DNA from: a virus
Virus record (IMG/VR): IMGVR_UViG_3300046517_001666
Location: 1 to 21,764 of that record
Length of the DNA: 21,764 nt
Direction: 5' to 3' (one strand)
Shown here: positions 4,448 through 21,090 of the stretch, in pieces
Numbering within the stretch: the stretch's first letter is position 1
How the letters are laid out: every line of letters starts with the position of its first letter
Program-made: the position numbers and the translations under genes
The notes under the pieces: generated by a model
Database searches by the model: none
Told to the model about the DNA's origin: nothing
Seen by the model: only the letters and a program-made list of their open reading frames with translations

Positions 4448-4696
4448 ATGATGACCTATAGCTACGCACTCAGCGGCACCAACAGGGACGGCCAGACCTG
4501 GACCGCCAGGGGCAGGGTAGAGATTGAAGGGGATAAGGGAGACCTCATGGTGGCCATGGAGCGCTGCCTCTCCGACGCCTTCCTCAGGCTGACCAAGGGT
4601 GAGGCCGTCTACGGCCAGCCCGGGGTGGCGTGCCGCGGCCCGTATCGGGTTACGGGCTTTGAGCTTAAGGTGGGGGAGGGGAGCGATGTTGATTAG
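4448..4696 (+). CDS. Hypothetical protein (82 aa)
   Basis: The ATG at 4448 lies nine bases after AAGGAG (4433-4438). The protein has a β-rich start (YSYALSGTNRDGQTWTARG), a central helix (LMVAMERCLSDAFLRLTKG) and a final strand, the layout of a small phage accessory domain. The last ten or so bases overlap the next gene, which encodes a membrane protein, so the two are probably co-translated. I do not recognise the family. Two Cys residues are present but do not form a motif. Confidence 0.7.
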   Translation: MMTYSYALSGTNRDGQTWTARGRVEIEGDKGDLMVAMERCLSDAFLRLTKGEAVYGQPGVACRGPYRVTGFELKVGEGSDVD

Positions 4697-6856: not shown

Positions 6857-7243
6857 ATGCACTTCTGCACATCAACAATGAAGTTTCTCAAGAACGACTG
6901 GTTCTGGCAGAAGACCGACATGCTGGTCGCCCGCATGACCTCGCAGGACCTGGTCAACGTCTACTCCCACATCGATAGGTTCTTTGACGACCACTTGAGG
7001 GATTGGACCAACGTGGTCGGGGTAGCCAGGAACTGCCCTGACCCGTGGCCTCCGGTGCTCGCTCCAGTATGGGTCTCCGCCTGGAGGAACGAGGACGAGG
7101 CTGCAATGTTCCTCGGCAACCTATACTGTCGCAAGGCGATAGTCCGCCCGGAGGTTTGGTGGAGCTTCTCGGACACGGTGCTACCGGGGAGGCCTAGGCG
7201 CTACATCGTACAGCACCACATGATGACACCGCACTCAAAGTAA
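6857..7243 (+). CDS. Hypothetical protein (128 aa)
   Basis: ATG 6857 has AAGGA (6843-6847) nine bases upstream. ATG 6836, overlapping the previous stop, is the alternative and adds seven residues. The protein is rich in Trp and aromatic residues (NDWFWQKTD, RDWTNVVGVARNCPDPWPPV, VWWSF) and seems to be a compact α/β domain. It contains a helix DLVNVYSHIDRFFDDHL. It ends with a basic strand (RPRRYIVQHHMM). I do not recognise the family. Clean boundaries and good ribosome spacing support a real gene. Confidence 0.65.
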   Translation: MHFCTSTMKFLKNDWFWQKTDMLVARMTSQDLVNVYSHIDRFFDDHLRDWTNVVGVARNCPDPWPPVLAPVWVSAWRNEDEAAMFLGNLYCRKAIVRPEVWWSFSDTVLPGRPRRYIVQHHMMTPHSK

Positions 7244-7618: not shown

Positions 7619-7648
7619 TGGCGTGGTATGTAAAGTAACCCGGCGCAC

Positions 7649-7675
7649 GGGGCCGGCTGGATTAAATCAGGCCCC
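7649..7675 (+). terminator. Weak hairpin, possible attenuator
   Basis: In the 86-base gap between genes, GGGGCC (7649-7654) can pair with GGCCCC (7670-7675) around a 15-base loop, followed by CTCTT. The stem is short and the T-tract poor, so termination is uncertain. It may lower expression of the downstream regulator. Confidence 0.35.
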
Positions 7676-7704
7676 CTCTTAAGCAAGGAAGGAAGAAGTT
7701 GGAC

Positions 7705-8079
7705 ATGGCAAAGATCGTAAAATTTCCAAGGGGCCGCAAGTCGTCCGCGGACCCCATCTACTCCGACGAGGTCTCCCAGTTCGTGGACGACCTCGGAGGC
7801 TTCGTGCTCAACCTCAAGGCGGCAACCCACTCGACGTGGGAGGAGCTGGCCCACCGGACGGGCCTCAACGATATGACCCTGGTCAGGCTGGCGGATAGGA
7901 AGACCAAGGCGCCGATGTTCAGAACGGTGTACGCCATCCTGCGGGCACTCGATGAGAGGTCCCTGATTAGGCACTCGCTGTTCGAGAAGTACAGGGGGTT
8001 TAACCGGGCAGATGCCAAGCGGCTGGACAAGAGCGTCGCAGGCATGGGGGAGAGGGGGAGGGGGAGTGCAAGAACCTAG
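7705..8079 (+). CDS. Cro/C1-type HTH transcriptional regulator
   Basis: ATG 7705 follows GGAAGAAG by six bases, and an in-frame TTG at 7699 is less likely. The 124-residue protein has an XRE-like helix-turn-helix near residues 43-80: STWEELAHRTGLNDMTLVRL, the usual x-x-L-A-x-x-x-G-L-x-x-x-T-L pattern, then VYAILRAL as the closing helix. The N-terminus (MAKIVKFPRGR) and C-terminus (GERGRG) are basic. It is the last + strand gene and lies directly before the convergent hairpin region, so it could control either arm. It resembles phage repressors, but the operator is unknown. Confidence 0.75.
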   Translation: MAKIVKFPRGRKSSADPIYSDEVSQFVDDLGGFVLNLKAATHSTWEELAHRTGLNDMTLVRLADRKTKAPMFRTVYAILRALDERSLIRHSLFEKYRGFNRADAKRLDKSVAGMGERGRGSART

Positions 8080-8087
8080 CCTTCATA

Positions 8088-8112
8088 GAGCCCCTAGGAG
8101 GGGGCTCCTAGG
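8088..8112. repeat. Overlapping alternative hairpins
   Basis: GAGCCCC (8088-8094) pairs perfectly with GGGGCTC (8101-8107). CCTAGGAG (8093-8100) pairs perfectly with CTCCTAGG (8105-8112). The two stems share bases and cannot form together. Confidence 0.8.
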
Positions 8113-8121
8113 CCTCCTCTA

Positions 8122-8145
8122 AGGGGGGAGGACTAAGGCCCCCCT
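8122..8145. repeat. Inverted repeat, 7-bp stem
   Basis: AGGGGGG (8122-8128) and CCCCCCT (8139-8145) form a perfect seven-base-pair stem around a ten-base loop (AGGACTAAGG). It is one of the run of hairpins just after the + strand regulator gene. Confidence 0.7.
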
Positions 8146-8165
8146 CTCTGGACCCCCTAATCAGG

Positions 8166-8220
8166 GGCCTTCCTAGGCCCCCTGTAAGGGGCCTTTAGGA
8201 AGGCCAGGGAGGGGCCTTCC
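8166..8220. repeat. Three-arm inverted repeat with competing stems
   Basis: The arm GGCCTTCCTA (8166-8175) pairs with TAGGAAGGCC (8196-8205), and inside it GGCCCC (8176-8181) pairs with GGGGCC (8188-8193). This gives a 16-bp stem with a two-base bulge. GGAAGGCC (8198-8205) can instead pair with GGCCTTCC (8213-8220). The same middle arm serves both stems, as in an attenuator. Confidence 0.8.
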
Positions 8221-8264
8221 AGAGCCGGGCTGTGGCCTAGCCCCCCTCCCTTAGAAACTAACCA

Positions 8265-8284
8265 GCGGCCTGTTTGTAGGCCGC
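8265..8284. repeat. Perfect 7-bp hairpin
   Basis: GCGGCCT (8265-8271) and AGGCCGC (8278-8284) flank the six-base loop GTTTGT. The hairpin lies three bases before the strong terminator stem and may stack with it. Confidence 0.75.
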
Positions 8285-8287
8285 CAC

Positions 8288-8323
8288 GGGCCTAGGTCCT
8301 CCCGGACCTAGGCCCCCCTTTTT
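8288..8323 (+). terminator. Strong rho-independent terminator of the + strand arm
   Basis: GGGCCTAGGTCC (8288-8299) and GGACCTAGGCCC (8304-8315) form a perfect 12-bp stem with a TCCC loop, followed by CCC and TTTTT (8319-8323). This is a textbook + strand terminator. No T-tract exists for the - strand on the other side of the stem. Confidence 0.9.
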
Positions 8324-8325
8324 GA

Positions 8326-8392
8326 CCTAGGGGAGGTATCCAGGTAGGTATCTATTGGGGGCCCAGGCCGCCAAGGACCCTCCTCCCCTAGG
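8326..8392. repeat. 11-bp inverted repeat with a 45-base interior
   Basis: CCTAGGGGAGG (8326-8336) is exactly complementary to CCTCCCCTAGG (8382-8392). The interior contains a direct AGGTA repeat and a GGGCCC palindrome. It lies just after the last - strand gene and may shield or end that transcript, although it lacks a T-tract on that strand. Confidence 0.75.
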
Positions 8393-8420
8393 CCCCCCTC
8401 CCCGCGCGACGGCCCTACGG

Positions 8421-11596: not shown

Positions 11597-11687
11597 GGCG
11601 CACCTTCCCTCGGATCTTCTTGAGACGACGCGCCAATGCGGCCAGGAGGGCCGCCCGCCTTTGCTCGCACTCTCGGCATGAGGTCAT
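11586..11687 (-). CDS. 33-residue C-x2-C basic protein
   Basis: ATG 11687 overlaps the TGA of the large fibre gene (ATGA), and the stop TAA (11588-11586) overlaps the start of the next gene. The product reads MTSCRECEQRRAALLAALAR, then a short basic end RLKKIRGKVRRDR. The Cys pair followed by an Arg/Ala-rich helix recalls half a zinc finger. Overlap at both ends, at precisely the coupling spacing used by neighbouring genes, is the main argument that it is real. I remember similar tiny CREC proteins in phages, without a function. Confidence 0.65.
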   Translation of the reverse strand: MTSCRECEQRRAALLAALARRLKKIRGKVRRDR

Positions 11688-14600
11688 GGCGTGCCATCCA
11701 TCGAGTGGCCCGGCTGTAGGTTGGAGTATGAATAGACGATCTCCGAGTGCGCCGGCTTCCAGCGATTGAACAGGCAGTCCTGGTCAATGAATAACCCGAT
11801 GCGCAGGTGGGGGTCTACTCCGGCCTGGCCCTGGCTTGCGCGGAACCAATTCAGGCTCGCATTAGTGACGTGGATGGTCCAATAGAACCTCATCTCTGGC
11901 CGCCCGATCTGCCAGCGGGGGCTCTTGTGGTCCTGGCTAAGTGCGCTGGTGTCCCCGCACTGGCTGATGCCGACCATGAACGGCGAGTACTCCTCGATCA
12001 GGACCTGGTAGCCCATCCACTCTGCGACGCTATAGAAGAAGGAGCGCGACTGGCCGCCCATCAGCGTCATCTTCATAACGAGCATGTCTCGCCGCTCGCC
12101 AATGGTCGCCGTCTCCTTGAAGCATGGGTCGGGCAGTCCCCAGGCCCGCTCCCAGTCCGGCAGTAGCTCGAGAGTCGACCGCGGGTCCGACTCTATCTCG
12201 AGGAGGTCTGCGGCGCGGCCGTCTACGAAGCCGTAGTACCTGCCCAGGCCGGTCACGGTCTTGACCAGCGTTGACTCATGGCGCCTCGGCCACGCCTGCC
12301 CCTTTGGCAAGAGGTCCATCAGCGCGTACGCGTAGTCGTCGCCAGACCTCCGCACGTGGCGGTCCATATCGGTGGGGTAGGTTGGCGGCGGCTGGGGCAT
12401 GCGCCCCGGCTCACCGAGGTCTGGCGGCTCCGGCACCAGATCATCGGCATAGAGGATTTGCGGGTGCTGTTGCAGCACCGGGTCGATAGGAACATCCGGC
12501 GAGCCGGTGACGAGGTTGTTAGCACGCAGCACACCGATCGAATAGCCAAGCCCGAGGTACGGCGAGCTAGTGACAAGGTCGATTGCGTGCGGGATTGCAT
12601 AGAAGTGCGCGAGGGCGGGCGTCCCGAGCACCGGGCTAGACGTGACGAGGTCGAGCGCCGCCATGCTGCCGCCGAGGCCGGGAGACCCGAGCGCAGGCGA
12701 CGACGGCGCAAGCGGAGTCCCGTAGAACAGGTAACCGTAGGGCGCATTCGGCGGCGAGAAGTTGTTGGTCCACCGCGCCACGCCCTTGGTGACGCGGATT
12801 TCGTCTAAGTAGCCGTTGACGCAATTTGCGCCGCTTGGATTGTATGAGTTGCCGCCGATGAACGGCAGTCCCGCGCTTATCGCATAGTTGTTCGCATCGA
12901 CGTAGCTTGCACCTTCCTGCATTCCATTCAGATAGAGCTTAGTGACCCCTGCCGAGCGAACGAGCGCGACGTGATACCAGACGTTCGCAGATAGAGTTGT
13001 CGATCCAGTGATTATACCCGCCGCATTTACTAAAACCCAAAGGACGCCATTAGTTGTGTAGATAGTTGGATGTGTAAACGAGTTAACACCGCTCGGGCGC
13101 CCATCGTAGATGATTACTGCATTACTCGGATTATTAAGGTTCGCCCAAAAATCAATCGTGAAGTCACCGGTGCCATAGGCAAAATCATTAGAGCCATCCA
13201 GCGCCAGACCGCAATTTGCGCTCCCGTCGAAGATCGCCGCTGCGCTACCAAACTTTTCTTGTGCAACAGAAAGCTGTGCAGTTCCGTGGATCGTGACCGG
13301 GTGATTGCGCCCCGACGTGTCCGGAATGACGGTCGAGCCGTTGAAGCCGTCGCAGTGCAGCAGCAGTACGGTCGCGGCGTCGATAGACTGCAGCGGCCAT
13401 GCGGCGCCGAGGACGGGTGAGGCTGGCGCGAGTGGCTGTGCGAAGAACTGATATGGCGGGTACGGCGCAGTCGGTGGCGAGAAGTTCGTCGTCCAGCGGG
13501 CAACCCGCGAGACGCGGATTTCATCCATGAAGCCGTTGAAGCAACCGGGCGGGTAGGCTGGCCCCGAGGCGCCGATGCGCGGATAGCCGCCAGCGCCAAC
13601 CGCGTAGTTGTTGGCGTCGGTGTAGATCGGGCCTTCCTGTACGCCGTTGACGTAGAGTTTGGTGACACCTGCCGCGCGAACGGCAGCGACGTGGTACCAC
13701 ACGCCAGTCGTGGCTACGGTCGTGCCGGTGATCGGGATCGCGCCATCGTAGCCGAACTGGAATTTGTTCGTTAGCCCGTCGATTACAACAAACGGTGCGA
13801 CGGTCGCCCCGGCATCGCGGCTATCGTAGATGATGAATGTCGCGCCCGTTGTGGACGGCAATCCCACCAGATTGACCCACGCCTCTATGGTGAAATCGCC
13901 AAGGCCGAACGCAAAGTCTACTCCGCTATCGAGCGATAGGTAAGAGGCTGTCGTTCCTCCAAACTCAGCGCCTCCTCCGCCAAACCTTGCAGCGCCAGTA
14001 TTGTTGTTGACCCGCGTGCCGCCGTTCGACGTAACTGCGTGGTTCTTGCCCGAGTAGTCGGTGAATGTGGTTGCGAACTGCGTTCCCTCGCAGTGCAGCA
14101 GCAGGACCGTGTTGCCGTCCTGCTTCGTCAGTCCCGGCAGACCCAGCGGAGCCGCGCCGACCATCGGCGTAGGTGTGTACGGCGCAGCCGGTGGCGTGAA
14201 GGCGCCGGTCCACAGCGCGCGGCCCTTGGTGACGCGCACTTCGTCCATGTACCCGTAAGTACCGAGAAGTGGATAAACACTCGCGCCGATCTGAGTGTAA
14301 TTCCGCGTATCGGCGATACTGCCTTGAGACACGCCGTCAAGATAAAGAGTAGAGGTTCCGCCCGAGCGCACCAGGGCAATGTGGTGCCAGACATTGGCGG
14401 TGATTGCGGTCGTACCAAGTATAAGGCCAGAGGAATAGACGACATTATTGCTGTGGGCTAACGCAAGACCGACGTTCGCTTCCGACCCAGTGGCATACGG
14501 CCAGTAGATGATGAAGTCGGCACCTACGACAGACGGAAGGGCCGTCAAATAGAGCCAGAGGTCAATCGTAAAGTCGTTGGTGCCGAAAAGAAAATCAACA

Positions 14601-15931
14601 CTCGAGTCAGCTATCAGAACGCCATTCTGGTCCGGCGCGTTAAACGAGGCACCACCAAACTTTGACTGCGCAGTGGAGATAGCATAGCTGGCGTTTCCAG
14701 TGTTTGACGCAACCGCATGGCGCGCCGTCGCATCAGTGATGGTCTGCGAGCCGTTTGCCCCATCCATGTGGAGCAACATGACGGTGCCGTCCGCAGACGG
14801 CGCGAGCCCCAGCGGAACGAAATAGTACGGAGGGAACGGTGCTACTGATGGCGTGAAGTTTGCGGTGTAGCGTGCACCTCTTGAGATACGATACTCGTCA
14901 ATGTAGCAGTTTGCGCAGGGGCCGTAGTTGATCGTTGCATATGTGTTGGTATACGAATAGGTGTCTGCGAAGGTGCCGCCCTCCGACACGCCGTTGACGT
15001 AGACCCGAGAGACTTGCAGATAGCGGACGAGCGCGACGTGGACCCACTGATTGACCGGGATTGGCGTCGTCGTAGTAATGCGCGCGCCCTGCTGCGTATA
15101 ATACTGAACGACCTCTGCCGACCCATTCCAGAAGAAGCCGAGATATGGGTTGTTCGCATCACCAACCTGTCGGCCATCATAGATGCCGCCATCGTAACCG
15201 ACGTTCCGGAACGAGTTGACCCAAATCCACGCCTCAATCGTAAAGTCGTCAGTCCCAAAACCAAAATCAGCGTGGGGTACAGTATTGTCAGTTACGACAT
15301 AGGACGAGGCCGATCCGTCACACGAGAGCGAGCCGGAGCCAATCTTAGACCGCGCTGACGTTAGTATCGCACTGCTTTGCAGATTGACCGCGTGGCGACC
15401 GGCACTGTCCGGCGCATATGGGCCATCAAAGTGCAGCAGTAGCGAGGTCGAGAGCGGAGTGGCGACGAGAGACGCCGTGTAGGTGATCGAAACATAGCCA
15501 GTGCCAGCCGTGACGCCGTCGCCAGCGTCGGTTCCTGCCTGTCCGACGACGACGGTGATGTTTGCCGAGGCGGCAGGAGCGCCGCCGTCGCTTGGCGCCC
15601 ATGTCTGAGTGACCCTACCTCCTGCACTGCCCCAATAGAAGCTACCACCTCCTGATGAAACACTGGTACTGCCAGCGCCGCCACCGCCTACAGTGACTGC
15701 ACCTCCAAAGCCACCTTGGGCGGCCGGTTGACCAGTCATCGTATTGCCAGTGCCACCGTAGGCAACGACTGCAGAGCTTGAGCCAAACGAGCTATTACCG
15801 CCACTCGAACCATTGTTAACGCGGTTATAGCTCGACCCTCCGCCAGGAGCACTCACATCGACACTTAACGTCGTGTAAGCTACGACGGTAAAAGTATAGG
15901 TGCCCGGCGTTGTGTAGTTGACAGTCGGCAT
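11684..15931 (-). CDS. LamG-repeat tail fibre fused to YmfQ/gp48-like baseplate domain
   Basis: One intact frame of 1415 residues. Residues 1-155 are Gly-rich (PGTYTFTV start, GGRVTQTW). Then come four LamG/concanavalin-like domains, about 160-370, 380-590, 605-830 and 850-1070. Each has the signature F-x-x-D-F-T-I-E/D-x-W and W-x-H-V/I-A-x-V-R with Y-x-N/D-G. A linker of degenerate LVTGSPVLG units (about 1070-1180) follows. The end (about 1187-1415) is a DUF2313/YmfQ domain, with DMDRHVRRSGDDYAYALMDL, LPKGQAWPR, CGD and KPAHSEIVYSYS. YmfQ-like proteins (Mu gp48) cap the baseplate and are usually about 200 residues. The LamG domains probably bind host-surface sugars. The baseplate module is at the C-terminus, opposite to most fibres. 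Confidence 0.9.
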   Translation of the reverse strand: MPTVNYTTPGTYTFTVVAYTTLSVDVSAPGGGSSYNRVNNGSSGGNSSFGSSSAVVAYGGTGNTMTGQPAAQGGFGGAVTVGGGGAGSTSVSSGGGSFYWGSAGGRVTQTWAPSDGGAPAASANITVVVGQAGTDAGDGVTAGTGYVSITYTASLVATPLSTSLLLHFDGPYAPDSAGRHAVNLQSSAILTSARSKIGSGSLSCDGSASSYVVTDNTVPHADFGFGTDDFTIEAWIWVNSFRNVGYDGGIYDGRQVGDANNPYLGFFWNGSAEVVQYYTQQGARITTTTPIPVNQWVHVALVRYLQVSRVYVNGVSEGGTFADTYSYTNTYATINYGPCANCYIDEYRISRGARYTANFTPSVAPFPPYYFVPLGLAPSADGTVMLLHMDGANGSQTITDATARHAVASNTGNASYAISTAQSKFGGASFNAPDQNGVLIADSSVDFLFGTNDFTIDLWLYLTALPSVVGADFIIYWPYATGSEANVGLALAHSNNVVYSSGLILGTTAITANVWHHIALVRSGGTSTLYLDGVSQGSIADTRNYTQIGASVYPLLGTYGYMDEVRVTKGRALWTGAFTPPAAPYTPTPMVGAAPLGLPGLTKQDGNTVLLLHCEGTQFATTFTDYSGKNHAVTSNGGTRVNNNTGAARFGGGGAEFGGTTASYLSLDSGVDFAFGLGDFTIEAWVNLVGLPSTTGATFIIYDSRDAGATVAPFVVIDGLTNKFQFGYDGAIPITGTTVATTGVWYHVAAVRAAGVTKLYVNGVQEGPIYTDANNYAVGAGGYPRIGASGPAYPPGCFNGFMDEIRVSRVARWTTNFSPPTAPYPPYQFFAQPLAPASPVLGAAWPLQSIDAATVLLLHCDGFNGSTVIPDTSGRNHPVTIHGTAQLSVAQEKFGSAAAIFDGSANCGLALDGSNDFAYGTGDFTIDFWANLNNPSNAVIIYDGRPSGVNSFTHPTIYTTNGVLWVLVNAAGIITGSTTLSANVWYHVALVRSAGVTKLYLNGMQEGASYVDANNYAISAGLPFIGGNSYNPSGANCVNGYLDEIRVTKGVARWTNNFSPPNAPYGYLFYGTPLAPSSPALGSPGLGGSMAALDLVTSSPVLGTPALAHFYAIPHAIDLVTSSPYLGLGYSIGVLRANNLVTGSPDVPIDPVLQQHPQILYADDLVPEPPDLGEPGRMPQPPPTYPTDMDRHVRRSGDDYAYALMDLLPKGQAWPRRHESTLVKTVTGLGRYYGFVDGRAADLLEIESDPRSTLELLPDWERAWGLPDPCFKETATIGERRDMLVMKMTLMGGQSRSFFYSVAEWMGYQVLIEEYSPFMVGISQCGDTSALSQDHKSPRWQIGRPEMRFYWTIHVTNASLNWFRASQGQAGVDPHLRIGLFIDQDCLFNRWKPAHSEIVYSYSNLQPGHSMDGTP
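12725..15450 (-). repeat. Four tandem LamG-coding repeats
   Basis: The DNA holds four homologous units, roughly 14820-15450, 14165-14785, 13440-14115 and 12725-13370, each of about 0.65 kb. All begin at an LLLH-coding stretch and end at an N/A-F-x-P-P/S-x-A-P-coding stretch. Units three and four are the most alike, both encoding VTKLY, NG, QEG and DANNYA in register. The rest are more diverged, so one duplication is younger than the others. Confidence 0.85.
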
Positions 15932-18555: not shown

Positions 18556-19995
18556 TCACCGCCAAATGATAGCCATCATATTAATGTTGACCGGCCTCGT
18601 CTCTGCACCACCGGTCGTCGCGAGCGATCCAGTAATCGGAAGGCCAGTGATACGGTTGGCGATAGCCACGCTCGAGGCTCCCCTGGTGTCTGGAAGGTTA
18701 ATGCCTCCGAGATCTGGAGTACCATTGATCTTGACGGCCATCCCTAGCAGCGAGCCAAGATCAATCTTGTCGTTCGGCGGCGCAACGGTAGAGTCAATAA
18801 CATAGGCTCCGGTGGCTGGATTTCCTTGACGCGGGTTTCCAAAATCGATCGTCACACCGCCGGCAGGAAACATATGCGTATGCGACTGAACCTGTGAGGT
18901 CTGCTTAGTACCAACGTGGTCTCCCGCAACTCCGTCGCCTCGATCTGTGCGGGTCGCGGCATCTGGGTCAACCCCGCTACCATGGCTCCAGCCCCGAATG
19001 AATTGACCACGGAAGTCCGGCACTTTAAATGTATTGGGATCAGGCGCTCCGTAGCGTACCCCAATAATGCCAAACAGCCGCGAGTCAGTCACCCGAGACA
19101 GCGCCTGACCGTTACACTCATATGCGCCAGATGGCGGTACGTCGGTTGGCCACAAATCAATTGTACCAGGGACACCCCCAGTTATTGCCGGGGGGCCTCC
19201 GCCTCCGCCATTGATGACAGTCATCAACTGCATCTTTATCCCATCGAATACGCAGAAGATCAGGCCGCCAGTAACGATCTGCCCTGCAGTGAGCTGGCTC
19301 TGGTCCGGCCACACCAACTGCACGGCGGCCAGGCCGTCCATCTTGATGGTGACCGGCCCGGTATTAGTATTCATCACCTTGACCAGGAACGGGTCACCCG
19401 CAGACATAATTGTAATGTGCGGGTTAAAGATACCGACAATATTATTGACCGCGCCCGTATCCGTCGAGAAGGGGATCTTAAGGGTAAAGTTATTGACCGT
19501 TGTATCAGACTGAAAGCCCAAGAAGTTGATGACCTGCCAGTACGCACCATCAAAAACAAGATAGGCTATCTGACCCGCCCGTAAGTCCCCCGATACGAGG
19601 TCTGCACCAGTTGCGCGCCGAACGGCGTGGGCACCCAGCGAGTTACAGTTGAATGTCGATGGTCCGGTATTGGCGTTGCCGATCTTCACTGCCACCCGCA
19701 TCCCAACGTACAATTGCGTAGGCACCGGAGTAATCGAGGCAGAGTAGACATTGGCAGACCCCGTATCGACCCCGTACTCATTGATCCACGGACCAATCTG
19801 TAGCGCCTGCCACATCTGTGTCAGATCGGTATCGGAGGGCGTCAAGCCGCAACCAGTGATGCACTGGGCGAGCTCGCGCATCGGCTGCTCGAATGCGGCA
19901 GCGGGCGGGATCGACCCAGGGCGACCCTGAGACGGATCGCCATTGATGTACGGGGCATTAGGATCGAGGATGCCATATGGCGCTTGATATTTCAT
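18556..19995 (-). CDS. Tail fibre with phage tail collar domain
   Basis: ATG 19995 opens a 479-residue protein. The first 50 residues are probably the attachment end. Two related β-repeats of about 80 residues follow, each with N-A/T-NTGP, then L-x-AGQI and an F-DG-x-x-x-Q-L/V end. A tail collar domain (about 276-336) has PPSGAYECNGQALSR, the LFGIIGVRYG stretch and FKVPDFRGQFIRGW. The C-terminal end GGAETRPVNINMMAIIWR is typical of this family, where the collar folds into a receptor-binding tip. It directly follows the gp47-like gene, so it is likely the main fibre. Confidence 0.9.
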   Translation of the reverse strand: MKYQAPYGILDPNAPYINGDPSQGRPGSIPPAAAFEQPMRELAQCITGCGLTPSDTDLTQMWQALQIGPWINEYGVDTGSANVYSASITPVPTQLYVGMRVAVKIGNANTGPSTFNCNSLGAHAVRRATGADLVSGDLRAGQIAYLVFDGAYWQVINFLGFQSDTTVNNFTLKIPFSTDTGAVNNIVGIFNPHITIMSAGDPFLVKVMNTNTGPVTIKMDGLAAVQLVWPDQSQLTAGQIVTGGLIFCVFDGIKMQLMTVINGGGGGPPAITGGVPGTIDLWPTDVPPSGAYECNGQALSRVTDSRLFGIIGVRYGAPDPNTFKVPDFRGQFIRGWSHGSGVDPDAATRTDRGDGVAGDHVGTKQTSQVQSHTHMFPAGGVTIDFGNPRQGNPATGAYVIDSTVAPPNDKIDLGSLLGMAVKINGTPDLGGINLPDTRGASSVAIANRITGLPITGSLATTGGAETRPVNINMMAIIWR

Positions 19996-20010
19996 GGTGG
20001 GTCTTCCCCG

Positions 20011-21090
20011 TCAGCCGTAGGAGATAGTGCCGACGATGGGTATATACCCATTCGACGGCATGGTTGTGTTCTCGTACTGAAGATCGAAGTGGTCAACTCC
20101 AGGAGCCTCCGAGATTGCCTCCGAAACCCATGAGCGGTAAATCTCTTGCCCCGGCTTAGCGCGCTCCATGAACATAGCAATGACTGACTTCTCAATGCTG
20201 GCGCGAGTTGGTACGTCGTCAGGAGACAGGTTGATGATCTTTAAGTTGATCGGGAAGCGCAGAGGAGCCTCAACAAAGAAGTCCTTTACGGTGACCGGCC
20301 TCACGTTATCGATGAACTGGGTTACAGTCTGCACGTCCTCATCTAGTGGAAAGCCATCATTCTCCAGGGCACGCAGGTCGTCGCACATGAACCTAACGGT
20401 AACGGTACCGATCCCCATCTCGAGTGGGTAGCACCAGGCCCGGGTCACGCCAGGCACCATCAGCGCCCAATGAACATAGTCCTCCTGGTCGCCACCCATC
20501 GGCGGCTGCTGGATGCGCTCGATGACACGATAGCGAAGCTCGTCGTCGGTCTCCTGGTCAGTGCCGCCCTGGAGGGTATCAACCACGCAGACGGTCTCTA
20601 CGAGGGGAGGCGTCACAATGAAGCTGACGTAAGTGCCAGGGTCGAGGTTGGTGATCGTCCCTGGTGTCAGGGACCTGATGGGCACGGGAGTCGGCTGATC
20701 AGTAACGGTAACCGGAGCGGTCGTCTCGAACACAGTGAAGCCGTCGGTGACTTGGGAGGCCAAGGGGACGGTGGCCCCCTCTGGGGGTCCCGTCACCAGC
20801 ACGGTGCCGACTGACAACGTGGCGAGCTTCCTTCCCGTCGTCCCGTCGGCATTGACCAGCCAGATCTGGCCATGGCGATCCAGCCACTCGGTCTCCGCTG
20901 TATCCGGTAAGAGTTGAAGTGCCAGCCAATCGATATACTCCAAGGTCAGAAAGCACAGCGCGCCCTGGGCGTCACTGAGCACGCGCAGCACGCTATTGGG
21001 TACAGACGCATCGCTACCAGGAAGGGTACCGTGGATAGAGTCCCTGACAAAGGAACGCACTTCCTTGAGAGTTGGGGTTGACCAGGGCAT
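20011..21090 (-). CDS. Baseplate J-like protein (Mu gp47 family)
   Basis: The ATG at 21090 sits at the stop of the gp46-like gene. The 359-residue protein fits the baseplate J family: LEYIDWLALQLLPDTAETEWLDRHG near residues 50-75, then G-T-x-V-x-V-P strands, the hallmark GGTDQETDDELRYRVIER near 180, GGDQEDYVHWAL, and the end IEKSVIAMFMERAKPGQE with a WVSEAISEAPGVDHF helix. The family forms the wedge or inner ring of contractile-tail baseplates. Gene order gp45, gp46, gp47 is as in Mu. Confidence 0.93.
   Translation of the reverse strand: MPWSTPTLKEVRSFVRDSIHGTLPGSDASVPNSVLRVLSDAQGALCFLTLEYIDWLALQLLPDTAETEWLDRHGQIWLVNADGTTGRKLATLSVGTVLVTGPPEGATVPLASQVTDGFTVFETTAPVTVTDQPTPVPIRSLTPGTITNLDPGTYVSFIVTPPLVETVCVVDTLQGGTDQETDDELRYRVIERIQQPPMGGDQEDYVHWALMVPGVTRAWCYPLEMGIGTVTVRFMCDDLRALENDGFPLDEDVQTVTQFIDNVRPVTVKDFFVEAPLRFPINLKIINLSPDDVPTRASIEKSVIAMFMERAKPGQEIYRSWVSEAISEAPGVDHFDLQYENTTMPSNGYIPIVGTISYG

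Follow-up and report, generated by a model that had tools for sequence, protein, structure and literature searches.

A CTAG-rich hairpin array where two phage operons converge: a probable 3'-end and insulator module

The window analysed here (the whole stretch of DNA, 21,764 nucleotides, from IMG/VR virus record IMGVR_UViG_3300046517_001666) carries two phage operons that run head-on, and roughly 340 non-coding bases lie where the replication genes meet the lysis/tail genes. The rightward operon encodes an SNF2-type helicase within the window, and a DNA polymerase and an exonuclease subunit on overlapping contigs. The leftward operon, on the right side, encodes baseplate J, tail collar, tail fibre, Gp48-like and laminin-G-like tail proteins, an amidase endolysin and a 63-aa protein. 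The features are as follows.

4448..4696, + strand: 82-aa gene; in relatives, its homologue is the final gene ahead of the array
7699..8079, + strand: gene for a 126-aa small DNA-binding-like protein, the final gene of the rightward replication operon
8080..8420, no strand assigned: convergent non-coding junction, with the hairpin array and seven CCTAGG
8088..8107, + strand: hairpin 1, GAGCCCCT-AGGA-GGGGGCTC, 8 bp (minimum-energy fold)
8118..8255, + strand: long imperfect hairpin, left of the terminators (minimum-energy fold)
8177..8323, + strand (replication strand): match to the relatives' covariance model R2, 18.7 bits
8286..8263, - strand: intrinsic terminator-like hairpin of the leftward late operon, with the tail GTTAGTTTCT at 8262-8253 (terminator scan)
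8288..8325, + strand: intrinsic terminator of the rightward operon, hairpin 8288-8315 with a 12 bp perfect stem containing CCTAGG, and the tail CCCTTTTTGA (terminator scan)
8326..8392, no strand assigned: inverted repeat CCTAGGGGAGG (8326-8336) / CCTCCCCTAGG (8382-8392), with a 45-nt loop
8421..8612, - strand: 63-aa gene, the final gene of the leftward lysis/tail operon

By inspection the 126-aa product is putatively HTH-like, and searches of Pfam and PHROG gave no match for it. Just 5' of its gene, at 7640-7679, lies a GGGGCC...GGCCCC inverted repeat, a possible internal terminator or attenuator. In the opposite operon, positions 11684-15931 encode a 1415-aa tail protein in which four laminin-G/ConA-like repeats are fused to a Mu Gp48-like C-terminus, and the gene shows DNA self-similarity at a spacing of about 720 nt. 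Contig G001 is identical to the window from before base 1 through 15624, junction included, and contig G002 (L006), also identical, ends at window base 8010, 70 bases ahead of the array, likely an assembly break due to the hairpins. From our reading of the source collections, the samples came from soil.

The strong terminator placed at 8288-8323 by the original prediction was the top hit of the terminator scan. Moreover, the two best hits in 20 kb form a back-to-back pair, 8286-8263 (-) and 8288-8315 (+), so that in either direction the transcribed strand has a GC-rich hairpin with a T-run directly behind it. Structure in excess of one terminator, which had also been proposed, was recovered as stems at 8088-8107, 8118-8255, 8263-8286, 8288-8315 and 8326-8336 with 8382-8392; in the minimum-energy fold of the + strand the third of these spans 8265-8284. 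Against dinucleotide shuffles, the folding of 8080-8420 was better than expected on both strands, as anticipated (z -3.88 for + and -5.12 for -, reached by none of 100 shuffles in either case), and 8080-8258, from which the terminators are excluded, gave z -2.4/-3.0, with 3/200 and 1/200 shuffles folding as well. Significant structure in the right-hand third did not hold up, since 8322-8420 folded no better than shuffled sequence (z +0.5/+0.4). In a scan along the window, the most stable 120-mers of both strands fell at 8101-8400, and the composition-corrected signal peaked at 8221-8400.

All seven CCTAGG copies reported within 8093-8392 were found (8093, 8107, 8172, 8291, 8307, 8326 and 8387), and only one more, at 7193, occurs in the rest of the window. 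The assumed chance rate of about one per 4 kb is close to that of a whole-window dinucleotide model, which expects 5.8 per window, or about one per 3.7 kb; under the local dinucleotide content the junction would hold 2.05, and 5 of 2000 shuffles reach seven. Likewise, three of the sites extend as the recurring unit CCTAGGCCCCC, a number of copies that none of 2000 shuffles attained. Six-base palindromes as a class are not enriched at the junction (10 vs 9.1 expected), so the excess belongs to CCTAGG itself. The hexamer is nevertheless not the conserved signal, because each relative's junction holds only 0-1 copies (17 CCTAGG in 830 kb of relatives); what the relatives share is richness in CTAG, at 8-36 per kb in 8/8 junctions (the window plus seven relatives) vs 0.8-2.2 per kb elsewhere. 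Within the window CTAG is rare beyond the junction (23 in the remainder), and GG+CC is raised in 7/8 junctions and CG lowered in 8/8. A collection-wide scan for clustered CCTAGG returned mostly unrelated tandem repeats, and clustering of this hexamer alone is thus not diagnostic. CTAG density is a trait of the phage family; CCTAGG is not.

Relatives were located via baseplate J, the L211 holin, a DNA pattern and the last early protein, and the records found have the same late module facing an early operon head-on. Close relatives picked by flanking proteins were identical sequences only, with no covariation information, and those picked by the amidase had unrelated downstream regions. An alignable element is present in six relatives (L211, L184, L255, L256, L258 and L276), and that of L227 is more distant (39-42 bits). 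It occurs once per record, between holin/spanin or late genes on one side and the end of the early gene on the other. Read in the direction of replication, variable CTAG-rich stems are followed by a small GC hairpin and then by a long one (CTGGTAGGTGTTT...AAACACCTACCAG), a terminator and a conserved block; the terminator stem usually holds CTAG and is followed by CCCCCTTTTTTGCGTT and then by the block ...CCCTACTATNNTACCTCT. Among the relatives the replication-strand terminator and its C5-T6 tract do not vary. Their late strand has no constant T-run, and a late-direction terminator is not conserved. The phages that carry the element are uncultured, and their tail proteins are related to those of Bradyrhizobium-group prophages.

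The block AGAGGTANNATNGTAGGG (L211 11274-11286, and likewise in L184, L255, L256, L258, L276 and L227) lies on the late strand just outside the replication-strand terminator; it resembles a -10 element (TANNAT), with exact copies once per genome. The idea of GGTANNATNGTAG as a repeating promoter was dropped because exact copies occur only once per genome. A coding reading of the block (ATG GAA CGC AAA AAA GG..) was rejected by eye, since the relatives do not have the start codon in common and an extra G in L211 shifts the frame.

Across the six aligned relatives, standard pairs fill 92.8% of pair cells. Both partners have changed in 10 pairs (0/500 shuffles; 2-4 in slid controls); the long hairpin (columns 89-175) accounts for 7 of these and the terminator stem for 2. 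Because this alignment also supplied the structure, and because its sequences are related and not many, the covariation is good, not overwhelming, evidence. The relatives' 150-nt arrays also fold well on the replication strand (z -4.6 to -7.4). Conservation beyond the single terminator, on which the original prediction had staked its case, was borne out: relatives keep a hairpin array at the equivalent junction, and compensatory changes reach beyond the terminator stem. A structure that recurs at one position while its paired bases change together marks a real element rather than noise.

The window itself entered neither of the covariance models, R1 built from five relatives and R2 from six. 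With R1 its junction was found first (13.3 bits), and within the window the models find only the junction. The R2 match has an E-value of 1.8e-4 in the window and 0.009 in 1.08 Mb, both rough values to which composition contributes. In the same 1.08 Mb the best unrelated match, collagen-like coding repeats in L203, scored 13.8 bits. The wrong strand of the window's own stretch scored 15.5 bits and the longest single word common to the window and the relatives was not significant, which indicates that composition contributes to the membership score. The sequence-only score of 10.6 bits was equalled in 4/2000 shuffles, and L276 shares three colinear exact words with the window (13, 13 and 10 nt), which 4/2000 shuffles matched. 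As in the relatives, the match lies 3' of the end of the replication operon, on the same strand, and faces the late operon. The order is also parallel, with a small hairpin, a long hairpin (8118..8255 being the candidate counterpart of the relatives' long covarying one), a terminator with CTAG in its stem, and CCCCCCTTTTT. The invariant block CTTTTTTGCGTT...CCCTACNAT...TACC that follows the stem in relatives is absent from the window, which has CCCTTTTTGACCTAGGGG, and a relaxed block pattern was found in 7/7 relatives and at 0 loci of the window's own phage. Taken together, these comparisons give moderate support to the window's junction being a likely member of the relatives' element family.

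Given this architecture, 8080-8420 is probably a composite module, 3' end and insulator in one, at the point where two phage operons collide, with paired terminators and about 200 nt of structured 3' UTR ahead of the replication-strand terminator. Transcripts of the replication operon would pass the large hairpins and end at the strong intrinsic terminator (C-run plus U-run) on the late-operon side, as the sequences of the window and the relatives suggest, and late-operon transcripts would end at the adjacent, oppositely directed terminator, as suggested by the window alone. The additional stable hairpins that precede the terminator may remain part of the replication mRNA at its 3' end, and could there shield it from 3' exonucleases and/or be cut by RNase III. 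They may also reinforce termination, which would keep either operon from yielding antisense RNA over the other. Termination efficiency, 3'-end protection, RNase III cutting and insulation are, at this stage, what we infer from sequence. This phage group would build such hairpins from CTAG-containing stems rich in G-runs and C-runs, with CCTAGG as a palindromic by-product of the stems. Weighing against the module reading are the moderate strength of the homology between window and relatives, the non-conservation of the late-direction terminator in the latter and the lack of the element in contig G005. Among the roles that had been offered for the extra structure, a terminator or 3'-end array fits best, and nothing was found for an origin or a packaging site.

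A first competing explanation is a plain bidirectional terminator, the remainder being intergenic filler rich in G-runs and C-runs that folds well through its composition. The fold of the right third, the modest z-scores of the left part, the very stable folds of many sequences of the same dinucleotide content and the inflation of model matches by composition would all fit it; however, the relatives' long hairpin has compensatory changes outside the terminator, and a like array stands at the equivalent junction in eight phages, and we regard this explanation as unlikely. The same covariation, showing that the structure is maintained, would also suit a phage non-coding RNA that acts in trans or as an antisense RNA: a stable RNA released by cleavage from the 3' UTR of the replication transcript, or one that starts at AGAGGTANNATNGTAGGG and runs through the array. 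Such an RNA would account for a conserved 30-bp block past the T-run, with the same first base despite different abutting genes and one copy per genome, but no -35-like conservation was seen, the block is absent from the window, the far end has no late-direction terminator and Rfam gave no match above the gathering score, so that we hold it to be very doubtful.

An element acting at the DNA level (a cruciform, protein-binding palindromes, a replication terminus or origin, or a packaging site) appears highly improbable. Its palindromes are symmetric, and the G-U vs A-C counts in the six-relative alignment (17:11 cells, 12:10 pairs) are too even to tell the strands apart, the strand assignment of the element coming from the invariant T-run; yet the stem is followed by the conserved C5-T6 run, the signature of RNA termination. 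The GC skew changes sign at the junction, but this coincides with, and is explained by, the coding-strand switch. One contig does end just before the array, although contig ends are expected at hard-to-sequence hairpins, and no terminase was among the families found in the scanned proteins.

Several known systems resemble the proposed 3'-end and insulator module in part. Phage early mRNAs may carry RNase III-processed 3' hairpins, as at the R sites of phage T7 and at lambda sib, and the junction likewise has a long double-stranded hairpin 3' of early phage genes, here known as a predicted stem only. Convergent gene pairs have been studied (e.g., PMC3027695); the junction is like bidirectional intrinsic terminators between convergent bacterial operons in its position, GC-rich stem, T-run and two directions, and unlike them in having two separate back-to-back hairpins together with about 200 nt of further stable hairpins that covary in relatives. 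REP/BIME palindromic elements, which lie at 3' ends, have been proposed to act in mRNA stabilisation and termination (e.g., PMC3733652), and they too are GC-rich palindromes 3' of genes; they are, however, high-copy and dispersed, whereas the junction element has one copy per phage record.

Covariation outside the terminator stem points to selection on structure where two phage operons meet, well beyond what termination alone requires. Should the hairpins stabilise, process or insulate transcripts, they would form a compact module for keeping opposing phage operons apart and a structured-RNA family absent from Rfam. Neither the junction nor a relative's element had a match in cultured-phage DNA, bacterial genomes yielded neither an exact copy of the conserved block nor a match to the element, and no description of it was found in the open-access literature. 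A bolder reading, which we judge quite improbable, is that of a previously undescribed structured phage RNA family of about 200-250 nt, single-copy and covarying, that would act as RNA itself in the replication-to-late switch, either as a stable 3'-derived RNA or as an antisense RNA from the conserved promoter-like block. Such a family would be found where replication and late operons converge in uncultured phages with kinship to Bradyrhizobium-group prophages.

Among bacterial genomes, baseplate J relatives come mostly from Bradyrhizobium, and also from Methylobacterium, Chelatococcus and Faunimonas, which suggests a host in the Bradyrhizobium group; it goes no further than a suggestion because the conserved block is in no bacterial genome searched and there is no cultured-phage match. 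Contig G005 (a record of 61 kb; L150 2740-13087), a close relative by its tail module, which is about 93% identical to that of the window, differs downstream and is without such an element; we read the shared module as a recent module exchange or a mosaic phage. In L184, between the array and the early gene (19910-20190), HNH endonuclease-like remnants were seen by eye in different frames (CVYCGSLATERDH.., CCRDCNHKL..), apparently a decayed homing endonuclease. Furthermore, long runs of repeated short words (GCTTTGCT, GCTTCGCT, CCTGCT) without a clear gene occupy L254 3520-4140 and L211 13070-13950, those of L254 coming after an ordinary terminator.
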